Source of the DNA: Candidatus Schekmanbacteria bacterium
GTDB taxonomy: Bacteria; CSSED10-310; JACPHN01
NCBI GenBank assembly: GCA_016188575.1
Contig: JACPHN010000099.1
Location: 1-19,434 of the forward strand
Direction: 5' to 3'
DNA: 19,434 nt
Shown piece by piece: positions 2,527 to 10,479 of the stretch. Within the stretch, counting starts at the first letter, position 1. The number at the start of each line of letters is the position of its first letter. Both the position numbers and the translations under genes were made by a program. The notes beneath the pieces are model-generated. The model had not been told where the DNA came from and did no database searches. It was given only the letters and a program-made list of their open reading frames with translations.

Positions 2527-3330
2527 TCAAGCTCGCTCCCGGCGCGTTGCCGGCACGCCCTGGCGCAGATAGCGGCCAAAGTTCACCCTGGTGGTCTCGG
2601 CGACCTCTTCAAGCTCGCATCCCCAAATCTCCGCCACGGCCGCAGCGACGCGAGGGAGCCACAGGGGCGTGGCCGGCTCGCCGGCAAACGGTTGCGGGGA
2701 GTCCGTTTCAAGCAGCAGGAGCGCCCGCTCGATGCTCGCGCAGACCTTGCGCTGTTCGGCGCCGCTGATGAGGCTCGGCCCCACCGAGATGTACACGCCC
2801 GCCGCGGCGCACTGGCGCGCCAGTTTCGCGGAGTGGGTGAACCAGTGCAGGAGGGCACCGAGGCCAGTCTGGCGAGTGAAGTCGATCGCCACCTCCACCG
2901 TTGCCCGGGTGGCGCGCCGCGAATGCAGGTTGACCGGGAGCCGGGCGTCCGCCGCCACAGACAGGTAGGCCTCCAGCTCGGCGCGCTGCTGGCCCTGGCT
3001 CGCCTCGGTGCGGGCGTGAAAGTAGTCGAGGCCGACTTCGCCGATCAGATCCGCCTCCGCGGCGTGCTCGCGCGCAAACGTGCGGCAGGCGCGCCGCTCG
3101 TCGTCCGTGGCGGTGACGGCAATCGCCGGGTGATGTCCAAGGCCGGCCAGCACCAGGTCCGGAAACTGGCGGTGCAGCTCGAGCACGCGGCGCATTGAGG
3201 GCAAGTCCATGGAGATGGCGACGATACGGTCGATGCCAGCGGTGCGCACCGCTGACACGACGGCGTCGATGTCGTCGAGATCGCTCAGGTGGCAGTGCGC
3301 GTCGACGAGCCCGGGGCGGTTCTGGCTCAC
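2527..3330 (-). CDS. tatD: TatD-family metal-dependent hydrolase / DNase
   Basis: This is a TIM-barrel metallohydrolase of the TatD/YcfH family, whose members are reported as 3'-5' exonucleases acting on DNA. The expected metal ligands are present: DAHCHL with H12 and H14, GEVGLDYF with E98, PVNLHSR with H136, HWFTHS with H162 and ETDSP with D210. The C-terminal motif TTRVNFGRYL is also typical. At 267 aa it has the normal family length. The start is GTG at 3330, which overlaps the stop of the upstream protease gene (GTGA). No strong Shine-Dalgarno sequence precedes it, so translation is probably coupled. It is most likely cytoplasmic. Its pairing with a secreted protease looks like operon hitch-hiking rather than shared function; that is inference. 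Confidence 0.93.
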   Translation of the reverse strand: MSQNRPGLVDAHCHLSDLDDIDAVVSAVRTAGIDRIVAISMDLPSMRRVLELHRQFPDLVLAGLGHHPAIAVTATDDERRACRTFAREHAAEADLIGEVGLDYFHARTEASQGQQRAELEAYLSVAADARLPVNLHSRRATRATVEVAIDFTRQTGLGALLHWFTHSAKLARQCAAAGVYISVGPSLISGAEQRKVCASIERALLLLETDSPQPFAGEPATPLWLPRVAAAVAEIWGCELEEVAETTRVNFGRYLRQGVPATRRERA

Positions 3331-4364
3331 ACGCGCGCCCGCGGCCGGAGTCGCCGCCGCGTTGCGGCCCCGCGGGTAGCAAAGGCAAGAACGAGCAGCC
3401 AGACGAGGTCGAGCACGGCGCGGGAATCCGCATCATGGCGCTTGGTGCCGGGGCTCGCGGCGAAGCAGGCGAACGGCCCATCGTCCTCGTCGCTGCTATC
3501 GTCCCGGGGCGGCTTCATGATCTGCTCGACCCATGCCGCATAGCGCGAGACGCGGGTGTAGACTCCCGGCGACTGCGCCCGCGCGCACCCCATCCCCCAG
3601 CTCACGATGCCCGCAAGGCTCCACCCCGTGCCCGCGCTCGGCACCACAAGCGGCCCCCCGGAGTCCCCTTGACAGGAGTCCTTTTCGCCATTCATGAACC
3701 CCGCGCAGACCATGTTGTCGGTCACCCAGCTCTGTTGCCCCTGCGAGTCGTCCAGCCACGACTCGCACTGCGCGTTGCTGATAATGGGGATTTCGACCTG
3801 GAGGAGGACGACCGAACCCGCTCCTGCCTCGCTGGTCGCGCCCCACCCGGTAACCGTCGCGACCACCCCCTCCAGGCTTCCGGCCGCGTCGCCGAGCGGC
3901 GGTACGGTCTGGACGCCGCCGCTCACGTCGGCGGGCCTGGCCAGACGCAGCAAGGCGATGTCATTGTCGCCCGACGCGCCGTTGTACAGCGCGTGCGGGT
4001 ACGCCGCCGCGACGCCGAGCTGCTGGTAGCCGGGCTCCGGGGTTTCGAGATTGTGAGCTCCCACCACCGCGCCGATCGTCGCCGGGTCGGCGATGCCGTT
4101 GTCGTCGAGAACGCAGTGCGCGGCAGTGGCGACCCACTCGCGAGCGATCAGCGAGCCACCGCAGAACTGCGCGTCGTAGAGCGAGTACCCGGCGGCGACG
4201 AGACTCGGCCTGATCAGGGCGACTTGCCACGGCCAGGCGCCGGGCGCGGCCTCGACGCCGCCGACGATGAAGGCGTGCTCCTGTCCGGCGGCAGCCTGCG
4301 AAACCGCGACACCTGTGAAAAAGACGACGCTGCCGAGCAAGACGCGCAAGCGATGTGACTTCAT
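3327..4364 (-). CDS. Exported trypsin-like serine protease (S1) with C-terminal membrane anchor
   Basis: This is a chymotrypsin-fold peptidase. A signal peptide (residues 1-27, KSHRLR then a hydrophobic run, cleavage near AAAG) precedes the activation site IVGG at 33-36. The catalytic triad is visible: H83 in TAAHC, D135 in GDNDIALLRL and S235 in GDSGGPL. D229, six residues before the Ser, predicts trypsin-like cleavage after Lys/Arg. After the protease domain come an acidic linker (DDSSDEDD), a Cys at 300, a hydrophobic helix at about 316-330 and an Arg-rich end. This layout resembles C-terminal sorting signals such as GlyGly-, JDVT- or MYXO-CTERM, although I cannot match the exact motif. 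The start is ATG 4364 with GGAG about 10 nt upstream. It is the first gene of an operon with tatD and points away from the GH123-like gene. Confidence 0.93.
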   Translation of the reverse strand: MKSHRLRVLLGSVVFFTGVAVSQAAAGQEHAFIVGGVEAAPGAWPWQVALIRPSLVAAGYSLYDAQFCGGSLIAREWVATAAHCVLDDNGIADPATIGAVVGAHNLETPEPGYQQLGVAAAYPHALYNGASGDNDIALLRLARPADVSGGVQTVPPLGDAAGSLEGVVATVTGWGATSEAGAGSVVLLQVEIPIISNAQCESWLDDSQGQQSWVTDNMVCAGFMNGEKDSCQGDSGGPLVVPSAGTGWSLAGIVSWGMGCARAQSPGVYTRVSRYAAWVEQIMKPPRDDSSDEDDGPFACFAASPGTKRHDADSRAVLDLVWLLVLAFATRGAATRRRLRPRARV

Positions 4365-7695: not shown

Positions 7696-10479
7696 ATGTC
7701 GAACGAGCTGAGCAACGGTACGGGAGGCGGCTACGCGCGCGCCTCTCACGCTCCGCTGCGCCGAATTCCCGGCGCCGGGGCCGCCGTCTTGCTCGTGCTC
7801 GCTTTCGCGGTGAGCGCCAGCGCGCAGAGCGCCAACACTCCCCGCCTCGAAGTCACCCGGCTCACGCCGACGTCGGTCTCGCTGGCGTGGACGCGCAGCA
7901 CCCTGGCGGATTTTCACCACTACGAGGTGAGATGTTCCCCCACGACCGATTATCGCTATTTTCTCCCGGTGCCTCTCCGGGGAATGCCGCTCGCGCTGGC
8001 ACTGAGCGTGCTCGTCGCGGCGCTCGCCAGCTCCCGCGCGCGCCGCGCCGGACGCACGGCCGCCGCGGCAGCGATCCTGCTCCTGCCCGCACTGGTGCTC
8101 GCCGATGCCGGGGACTGGCTGCTGGTGCACGCCATCAGCGATCGCGACGTCACGACGTTTGACGATTCGGGTCTCGCCCCGGGCACCACGCTGTTCTACC
8201 GAGTGCTGATGGTCGGCATCGACGGCGCCATCGCCTCCACGAACGAGGTCCAGGCCACTCCGGGCGCGGCCGCAACCGCATTCGGGACGGGCAGCACCGA
8301 TGCGTTCGGAGAGGCGGTGCTCGTCCTCGAGACCGCCGGCGGGCAGCGCCGAGCCGAGATCGCCTGCCGCACGGCGAGCGAGACCGAGGAGCCCCTGGCC
8401 GGTGTGACGTGCGCGGCGACACTTACGGACTTGCAGCTCATCGTCACCGCGATCGATCCCTCGGGAGCGCACTTCGCGGCCACCTCGCGCTACCCCGCTG
8501 GCGCGTTCCCACCGCCGGCTACGCTACCCGCCCGGGCAGTCACGAGCACGGTTCTCCTGACGCTGCGATCGCGCTCGCCCGCAGCCGAAACCGCGGCGCT
8601 ATTTGGTGGCGCTGACTCCTGGAGCGAGCTGGACCTCGATCCGGGCATGAGCCGATCGTGCTACGAAGGAGCCATGCCACGGCTGGTCCACGACGTGCTC
8701 GAGCTGGTGGCGGGCAGTTCCGATCCGCGCCAACAGCTTGCCGGAACGGTGTCGCCGGGCGTCGTCGAACAGCTCGCCTTGCCGGTCGCGGCGACGCGGG
8801 CAGCGGTTTCCGTGATGTTCGGCGCCGGCGCTCAGCCGGTCACCGACGGGCTCGCCGCCGCGGGGTTTCCAGCCGACCAGGACTACAGCTTGTGCCTGGT
8901 GTATGCGCTCGACCGGCGCGATGTCCCCTTGCGCTTCGAGCTCCGCGAAGTGATCTCCCCAAGCCGCGATCCGCGCATCTTGTCGTTGCAGATCGAAGGA
9001 TACCGCGGCGCGATTCCCGTTGGCTTTATCGTGGCGGATGCCGACAGCAGCCGGGTGGATGTGGCGCTCCATTACCTGCTGCTGGCCACCGATAGCGGCG
9101 ATGCGGAGCACCTTGTCTGCGCGGCGATCGGCAGCACGTCGCACGGCGCGATCAGCGAGGGTGACTCGTTCTGTGGGCTCAGAGATGTACCCGTCACTGC
9201 TGCAGGCACCGCCGTCCGGCTGACGCTCGACAGCAGTCGAGACTTCCCGGGTGTGCAGAAGATCGTTCGACTGCAGTTGCTGCCCCGGGACGAACGCCCG
9301 CTCGGGTTCGGAGAAAAGATTTTTTCCGGCGCGATCGCGATCGACAATAGTGGTAGCACGGACACGACCCGTCCCGAGGTTCGCCTGACGGCGCCCGCAG
9401 ATCACGCGACTGTCATCGGCGCGGTCGAGCTGCGCGCGGTCGTAAGCGACGACACGGGATTTCGGCAAGTCGATTTCTACCAGGACGCAGGTGCGGGCGA
9501 AACACTGATCGGCACCGATACGGCGCCCCAAGCGGAGGCCGCGGTGACGTGGGAAACCGCGTCGCTGCCGCCTGGCGAATATGTCGTCAGCGCCGTCGCC
9601 ACGGATCTGGCGGGGCTGAGCGCGCGGAGCACGATCACGGTGACGACCACCGGCGTCGCGTCGGCCTGTGAGAACGGCGAGTGCCTGGTTCCGGAAGGAA
9701 CCTTCGCGATGGGGTGCGACAGCTCCCAGGGGAGGTTTGCCTGCGAGCCGTGGGAAGCGCCCGTGCACGCCGTCACCCTCAACGCCTACTTCATCGACGA
9801 GCTGGAAGTCACGACCGGTGCGTACGCGAGCTGGCTCAACGGCGCCGGCATCGACCACCGGACCGGCTGCTCGGACACCGCATCGACCTCGGGCTATGCC
9901 TGCGTGCAAACGCGGGACGAAGACCCCGACAGCCACATCCTGTGGGATGGGCTCGCCTACACGGCCGAGGCCGATTTCGAGAATTATCCGCTGACGGAGG
10001 TAACCTGGTATGGAGCCCGCACGTTCTGCCAATCGCAGGGCAAGCGGCTGCCGACGGAGGCCGAATGGGAGAAGGCGGCGCGAAGCCTCGATGGGAGGAT
10101 CTTCCCCTGGGGCGCCGCGGACCCGGTTTGCGACCTCACCGCGCCTAACGGTGCCAAGTTTGACGACGACGCGTATTGCAACGCGACGGGGGCCGTGCCG
10201 GTTGGGTCGTTCCCGGCGGCGGCGAGCCCGTACGGCGTGCTCGATCTCGCGGGAAACGCGTGGGAGATCGTCAACGACTACTACGACGCGGGCTATTATG
10301 CTCAGAGCCCTCCGAATGACCCGTCGGGTCCGGCGGACGGGACGGACCGCGTCATTCGCGGCGGCTCGGCAGCCGACAGCGAGGGCGCGCTGCGCGGCGC
10401 CTATCGGAGCTGGGGCGGGCCGACCGCGACGGATGTGGACACAGGATTTCGCTGCGCGCGCGCGGCGGTCGGGCCGTAG
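7696..10479 (+). CDS. Large exported protein: interrupted FnIII, Ig-like and FGE-sulfatase domains
   Basis: The protein has 927 aa. A signal peptide (residues 1-44, core AAVLLVLAFAVS, cleavage after ASAQ) is followed by a fibronectin type III domain (about 48-190). Residues about 87-138 inside this domain are foreign to the fold: LPVPLRGMPLALALSVLVAAL, then SSRARRAGR, then AAAAAILLLPALVLADA. These form two hydrophobic helices around a basic patch, like an IPTL-type sorting signal. A long unrecognised region (190-555) follows, then a bacterial Ig-like domain (about 556-652, starting DTTRPEVRLTAPAD). The end is an FGE-sulfatase/SUMF1 fold (662-925) with LPTEAEWEKAARS, FPWG, LDLAGNAWEI, VIRGGS and GFRCAR. 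The two catalytic Cys of true formylglycine-generating enzymes are absent (ALRGAYRSWGG), so it is probably a binding or other PvdO-like module. ATG 7696 was chosen for the signal peptide; its ribosome site is weak. Confidence 0.85.
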   Translation: MSNELSNGTGGGYARASHAPLRRIPGAGAAVLLVLAFAVSASAQSANTPRLEVTRLTPTSVSLAWTRSTLADFHHYEVRCSPTTDYRYFLPVPLRGMPLALALSVLVAALASSRARRAGRTAAAAAILLLPALVLADAGDWLLVHAISDRDVTTFDDSGLAPGTTLFYRVLMVGIDGAIASTNEVQATPGAAATAFGTGSTDAFGEAVLVLETAGGQRRAEIACRTASETEEPLAGVTCAATLTDLQLIVTAIDPSGAHFAATSRYPAGAFPPPATLPARAVTSTVLLTLRSRSPAAETAALFGGADSWSELDLDPGMSRSCYEGAMPRLVHDVLELVAGSSDPRQQLAGTVSPGVVEQLALPVAATRAAVSVMFGAGAQPVTDGLAAAGFPADQDYSLCLVYALDRRDVPLRFELREVISPSRDPRILSLQIEGYRGAIPVGFIVADADSSRVDVALHYLLLATDSGDAEHLVCAAIGSTSHGAISEGDSFCGLRDVPVTAAGTAVRLTLDSSRDFPGVQKIVRLQLLPRDERPLGFGEKIFSGAIAIDNSGSTDTTRPEVRLTAPADHATVIGAVELRAVVSDDTGFRQVDFYQDAGAGETLIGTDTAPQAEAAVTWETASLPPGEYVVSAVATDLAGLSARSTITVTTTGVASACENGECLVPEGTFAMGCDSSQGRFACEPWEAPVHAVTLNAYFIDELEVTTGAYASWLNGAGIDHRTGCSDTASTSGYACVQTRDEDPDSHILWDGLAYTAEADFENYPLTEVTWYGARTFCQSQGKRLPTEAEWEKAARSLDGRIFPWGAADPVCDLTAPNGAKFDDDAYCNATGAVPVGSFPAAASPYGVLDLAGNAWEIVNDYYDAGYYAQSPPNDPSGPADGTDRVIRGGSAADSEGALRGAYRSWGGPTATDVDTGFRCARAAVGP

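Follow-up and report, generated by a model that had tools for sequence, protein, structure and literature searches.

Sorting-signal-like two-helix inserts inside FnIII and CarboxypepD_reg domains of exported proteins in an XrtH-encoding bacterial phylum

The window, by which we mean the whole 19,434-nt stretch of DNA that was analysed, encoded a 927-aa exported protein (Table 1) in which a signal peptide was followed by a split FnIII domain, an unassigned region, a Big_7 domain and an FGE-sulfatase domain. The insert splitting the FnIII domain (7954-8109) was exactly RYFLPVPLRGMPLALALSVLVAALASSRARRAGRTAAAAAILLLPALVLADA, flanked by HHYEVRCSPTTDY and GDWLLVHAISDRDVTTFDDSGL; it began with RYFLPVP (with a PVP motif) and continued as two hydrophobic helices separated by RARRAGR, the second of them terminating in ADA. 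The initial annotation had described a two-helix segment with a motif, RARRAGR and an ADA end at this place, which the sequence bore out to the base; its residue numbers were two below those of our protein P0001 because they were counted from the ATG at 7696, and in P0001 the insert occupied residues 89-140, i.e., it was not C-terminal. A single-sequence structure model placed strands and two helices where expected, with a mean pLDDT (41.6) too poor for use. On the minus strand of the window (3327-4358), a trypsin-like protein ended in FACFAASPGTKRHDADSRAVLDLVWLLVLAFATRGAATRRRLRPRARV, where a Cys, a helix and an arginine tail resembled a C-terminal sorting signal; this ending had no NCBIfam match.

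Table 1. Features of the gene for the 927-aa protein, in window positions
Feature	Position	Strand	Basis
Host gene, 927-aa exported protein	7696..10479	+	ORF; PF03781 (5e-44), PF17957 (3e-10)
N-terminal signal peptide, RIPGAGAAVLLVLAFAVSASA	7696..7824	+	Read from sequence; cleavage site putative
FnIII N-terminal half, strands A-C by alignment	7831..7953	+	fn3 profile 5-41; profile A2; alignment to titin FnIII
Insert start with conserved V-P (codons 7969-7974)	7954..7983	+	Alignment A2; motif enrichment
TM1, first hydrophobic helix	7984..8034	+	Sequence; helix in low-confidence model
Basic loop RARRAGR	8035..8055	+	Sequence; basic residues in every hairpin examined
TM2, second hydrophobic helix, ending L-A-D-A like a signal-peptidase I site	8056..8109	+	Sequence
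FnIII C-terminal half	8110..8265	+	Joined-flank fn3 match; profile A2
Big_7 domain, C-terminal part	9373..9594	+	PF17957, 41 bits
FGE-sulfatase domain, main C-terminal cargo	9679..10461	+	PF03781, 151 bits

The Pfam fn3 profile matched the intact window module over profile positions 5-41 of 84 (22.3 bits), ending at the insert. When the flanks were joined in silico, the match extended over positions 5-77 of 84 and rose to 29.9 bits (gathering cut-off 25), so that with the insert removed the module was a full-length, above-cut-off member of FnIII (PF00041), in agreement with the earlier proposal that the insert interrupts an otherwise normal FnIII fold. Joining had the same effect on two paralogous modules, whose fn3 matches grew from 2-44 to 2-83 (C70, 36.6 bits) and from 3-38 to 3-81 (C33, 27.5 bits). 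Alignment of the window FnIII to a titin FnIII placed the break after strand C, in the C-C' loop, with strands assigned from the alignment together with general knowledge of the fold.

A first scan of the genome's contigs with the whole window protein as query found no relative. A profile built from 17 FnIII hairpin modules (A2) retrieved 20 full-length modules from this genome (G000) at 92-146 bits and three more of the same kind at 44-59 bits, one at 59 bits and two that kept the hairpin and the C-terminal half. Paralogues of the window protein carried the hairpin at the same place, and about 23 FnIII domains of this genome were interrupted in the same loop, with further fragments at contig ends; as C162, C239 and C249 are close copies, the count of independent proteins lies somewhat below the module count. 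Host proteins varied widely, the hairpin following directly after the signal peptide in some and hundreds of residues further on in others. FGE-sulfatase-like domains were also numerous in the exported proteins of this genome, on many contigs, where they followed TP-rich linkers and often shared a gene with a hairpin. Among 386 genomes, confirmed full-length FnIII hairpin modules were found only in this genome, in G002 of the same phylum (two modules, in two genes) and in G070 of another phylum, a count with at most ten candidates scored per genome and only some of the weak matches read, for which reason absence is not strict; A2 matches in the remaining genomes were nearly all to plain FnIII halves. 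The G070 hairpin (L160, G070:C4, in a protein near 217353-217781) occupied the same FnIII loop, and its TM2 ended in LVAGSAFASCGGGSS, with a lipobox-like SAFASC resembling a lipoprotein signal peptide. The position of the insert was conserved, homologues keeping it in the same loop together with the VP. One apparent relative without the N-terminal half (L173, G000:C66) was rejected as a frame-shifted copy with its hairpin in another frame; hairpin and C-terminal half there stood in different frames beside a short tandem repeat reading FLPSFLPSFLP. At another locus (L171, G000:C144), G/C runs of 12 and 11 stood near the starts of the open frames of two genes whose hairpin modules were weak.

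VP was present in 16 of the 17 modules of alignment A2, which was not selected for the motif yet shows it, the V being invariant and the P almost so. Within the first eight residues, [IVL]P occurred in 19/25 FnIII-type hairpins (shuffle mean 6.3, maximum 15 in 2000) and in 18/20 hairpins of the CarboxypepD_reg type described below (mean 4.6, maximum 11 in 2000), an enrichment somewhat inflated because the motif guided the choice of hairpin starts, which was made by eye; the other 6/25 FnIII-type hairpins had no [IVL]P at the start. A-x-A at the TM2 exit, represented in the window by ADA, was found in 18 of 22 cases against 14.1 expected by shuffling (p about 0.03), a weak enrichment since the helices are alanine-rich, and exit sites were not strictly conserved. 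Basic residues lay between the helices in every hairpin examined. The best NCBIfam match of the window hairpin, though weak, was NF033207, "midcut-by-XrtH" (17.2 bits, E 0.0039), below the curated cut-off of 45 bits, which none of the 386 genomes reached. PF18203 (IPTL-CTERM) had no match in this genome at E ≤ 0.001, and the window insert lacked the C-terminal location that defines IPTL-CTERM; formal filing under either family was rejected by score. C-terminal VP signals of the same shape were present in this genome. The call of an IPTL/PEP-CTERM-type signal made in the initial annotation therefore stands as a resemblance to the IPTL/VP type with a conserved VP, but not as a match to the NF033207 or PF18203 models.

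That call depended on an exosortase-type enzyme being encoded in the genome, and one XrtH was found (TIGR04177, 87.4 bits, above the curated cut-off of 86), so that the reading was not refuted on this count. The XrtH gene was situated beside a lytic-transglycosylase-like gene, as read from the ORFs, and Cys115, Arg156 and His175 were invariant in an alignment of nine XrtH sequences; Cys/Arg/His is the proposed exosortase triad (PMC1569441). XrtH matches occurred in 24 of the 386 genomes, comprising all eight genomes of the phylum compared to 16 of 378 others. The phylum can with high probability be assigned to candidate division CSSED10-310, which is rare and uncultured (PMC8248873). Of the 386 genomes, 18 had an NF033207 match at E ≤ 0.001, and XrtH was encoded in 15 of these 18 (Fisher p 3e-18); the co-occurrence outside the phylum was 8/11 (p 2e-10), statistics to be read in the light of genomes of one phylum not being independent; three XrtH-free genomes had weak matches. 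Because many of these matches are ordinary C-terminal IPTL signals, the co-occurrence ties the signal type, and not the split domain, to XrtH. The split FnIII alone was found in 2/24 XrtH genomes and 1/362 others (p 0.01), both XrtH genomes being of one phylum, and G070 had no TIGR04178 match and no detected exosortase despite its FnIII hairpin. Judged from sequence, the motif is a stronger argument for the putative link between hairpin and XrtH than the co-occurrence of the split FnIII. No midcut gene was found by the hairpin filter within 10 kb of six XrtH genes, and our literature search returned no paper on XrtH or midcut proteins.

The NF033207 search also led to hairpins inside CarboxypepD_reg domains. 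Joining the flanks of an example from this genome gave a match to positions 1-81 of PF13620 (36.5 bits, cut-off 32.3), and a profile built from three such examples (A5) found full-length cases in this genome (at least eight, one of them stop-broken) and in G002 (five), G006 (four), G003 (two), G001 (two) and G007 (one), such that split domains occur in five other genomes of the phylum. In the XrtH genomes searched outside the phylum, A5 gave mainly half-domain matches. The hairpin motifs included IPTLSVTG, IPSIGVTG, VPTLSLFG and VPALSVTG, and some hairpins were near-canonical (e.g., IPTLSVTGFGLLILGFGFFLLRRFNRR in G007). Nine paralogous CarboxypepD_reg hairpin genes of this genome (L248 and L249 on C237, L250 on C53, L251 on C111, L252 on C139, L253 on C74, L255 on C266, L261 on C151 and L262 on C2) each had 9-25 consecutive G at an identical position, the TM2 exit. 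Only L261 (13 G) and L262 (9 G) kept the second half domain in frame; in six others it was readable in another frame, and L255 ended with its contig. Elsewhere, G/C runs of at least 9 were rare (2 in 148 kb of other loci), and the tract may reflect either a phase-variable C-terminal part or errors of assembly in a homopolymer.

Among known systems, the window protein is like the midcut-by-XrtH proteins of NF033207 in having a mid-protein hydrophobic hairpin after an xP motif and an XrtH in the genome, and unlike them in scoring far under the cut-off (17.2 vs 45 bits), in its host (an FnIII domain in a 927-aa protein) and in the dozens of copies per genome. In the CarboxypepD_reg-type relatives, the NF033207 profile match covered the hairpin and then ran on into the second half domain, which suggests that some curated members of the family may themselves be split domains; this would lower the novelty of the arrangement. 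The motif, helix, basic cluster and presence of XrtH are shared with IPTL-CTERM (PF18203), which goes with exosortase H (TIGR04177), whereas the window signal is internal, continues into a second helix with the bulk of the protein beyond it, and went undetected by PF18203. An internal MYXO-CTERM motif is found in MXAN_5598 between two functional regions, possibly as a result of gene fusion, and an ArtA substrate has a tripartite structure that is not C-terminal and, going by a title cited in the same source, is processed (PMC11980579). Both resemble the window protein in carrying a tripartite signal mid-protein, but the enzymes differ, and the MXAN_5598 signal is not inside one domain. In G003 (L180, G003:C9), an IPTL hairpin separated a part with PKD-like repeats from a second one that began GFA|QTAHF, an arrangement that looks like a fusion of two exported proteins in which the sorting signal and signal peptide were retained.

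The likeliest reading, to which we give roughly even credence, is a variant midcut signal in the FnIII C-C' loop, with XrtH cutting at VP and the FnIII halves holding the two chains together; it draws on the recurrent splitting of the domain, the conservation of the motif, the presence in XrtH of the catalytic residues expected of an exosortase, and the co-occurrence across genomes. The insert would form a membrane hairpin, TM1 running from out to in and TM2 from in to out. Since basic residues lie between the helices, the arginine loop would be cytoplasmic by the positive-inside rule, leaving both half domains outside the inner membrane and able to pair; by the same topology rules both would be periplasmic and fold together around the hairpin. 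From these features we infer cleavage, attachment to an envelope anchor, processing of TM2 and reassociation of the halves. XrtH would recognise the VP motif on the outward face of the membrane, cut there, and probably join the new C terminus of the N-terminal fragment (about 48 residues, FnIII strands A-C only) to an envelope anchor. The large C-terminal part would begin with TM2, which may serve as a membrane anchor or be removed like an internal signal peptide, and would remain attached through the pairing of the two FnIII halves into a single two-chain domain. The initial annotation expected cleavage to separate the halves, which on this reading may instead stay joined. As the fragment before the cut is so short in the window protein, its purpose would most simply be to hold the rest by pairing; in several proteins it is scarcely more than a half domain, and would presumably be useless unless bound to the other half. 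More tentatively, we postulate a general split-domain display system, in which an exosortase acts on a loop of a folded beta-sandwich, either excising the membrane hairpin from it or cutting there. A single domain would then by design consist of two chains, of which the small one is envelope-anchored, while strand complementation alone retains the large one; in one gene group, the poly-G tract at the hairpin exit would turn the second chain on and off.

The main rival to cleavage by XrtH is an uncut anchor, in which the helices hold the protein in the inner membrane and the FnIII domain folds around them with no protease involved. Hairpin ends on the same side and close together, as the C-C' loop requires, are consistent with it, as are a basic loop in every case and the G070 arrangement with no detected exosortase, but it leaves both the XrtH co-occurrence and the conserved VP/IPTL-like motif unexplained. 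Such a motif would be superfluous in a plain membrane anchor and for that reason supports a midcut, and C-terminal signals of the same shape in the same genome also speak against an uncut anchor; we regard it as possible but somewhat doubtful. Alternatively, XrtH and signal peptidase might cut the chain into two independent proteins, with the FnIII halves unpaired and the fragments sent to different places. The clear position of the G003 hairpin between domains and the frequent A-x-A ending of TM2 suit such a fate. However, the FnIII and CarboxypepD_reg halves each complete one domain, and their sequences have remained complementary in about 20 proteins, a fit that would be lost if the halves never came together; this makes independence unlikely. 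We know of no precedent for hairpin excision with re-ligation, in which the exosortase would transfer the N-terminal part to the new N terminus of the C-terminal part and yield a continuous FnIII protein, as in a membrane-coupled protein splicing. Joined flanks do give a complete domain, and exosortases are thought to be transpeptidases (PMC11980579), but the imperfect conservation of the TM2 exit sites counts against re-ligation, which we consider highly improbable. Finally, an assembly error or a recent mobile insertion in one gene, the case in which homologues would lack the insert, has nothing in its favour other than the genome being a draft of 275 contigs. Since the same loop is interrupted in about 23 divergent modules here and in two G002 genes, chance, a one-off insertion and misassembly are not credible sources.

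Sorting signals in the middle of a protein are known from only a few cases, most of them lying between domains. What appears to be new is that in this phylum they recur within single domains, do so in two different beta-sandwich families, and make up a main architecture of exported proteins, with the hairpin loops situated where the domain could close over a cut. If the hairpins are cleaved, domain fragment complementation would here be put to natural use across a genome to anchor proteins at the surface; if they are left uncut, the arrangement would be a new way of anchoring a beta-sandwich in the membrane through one loop.
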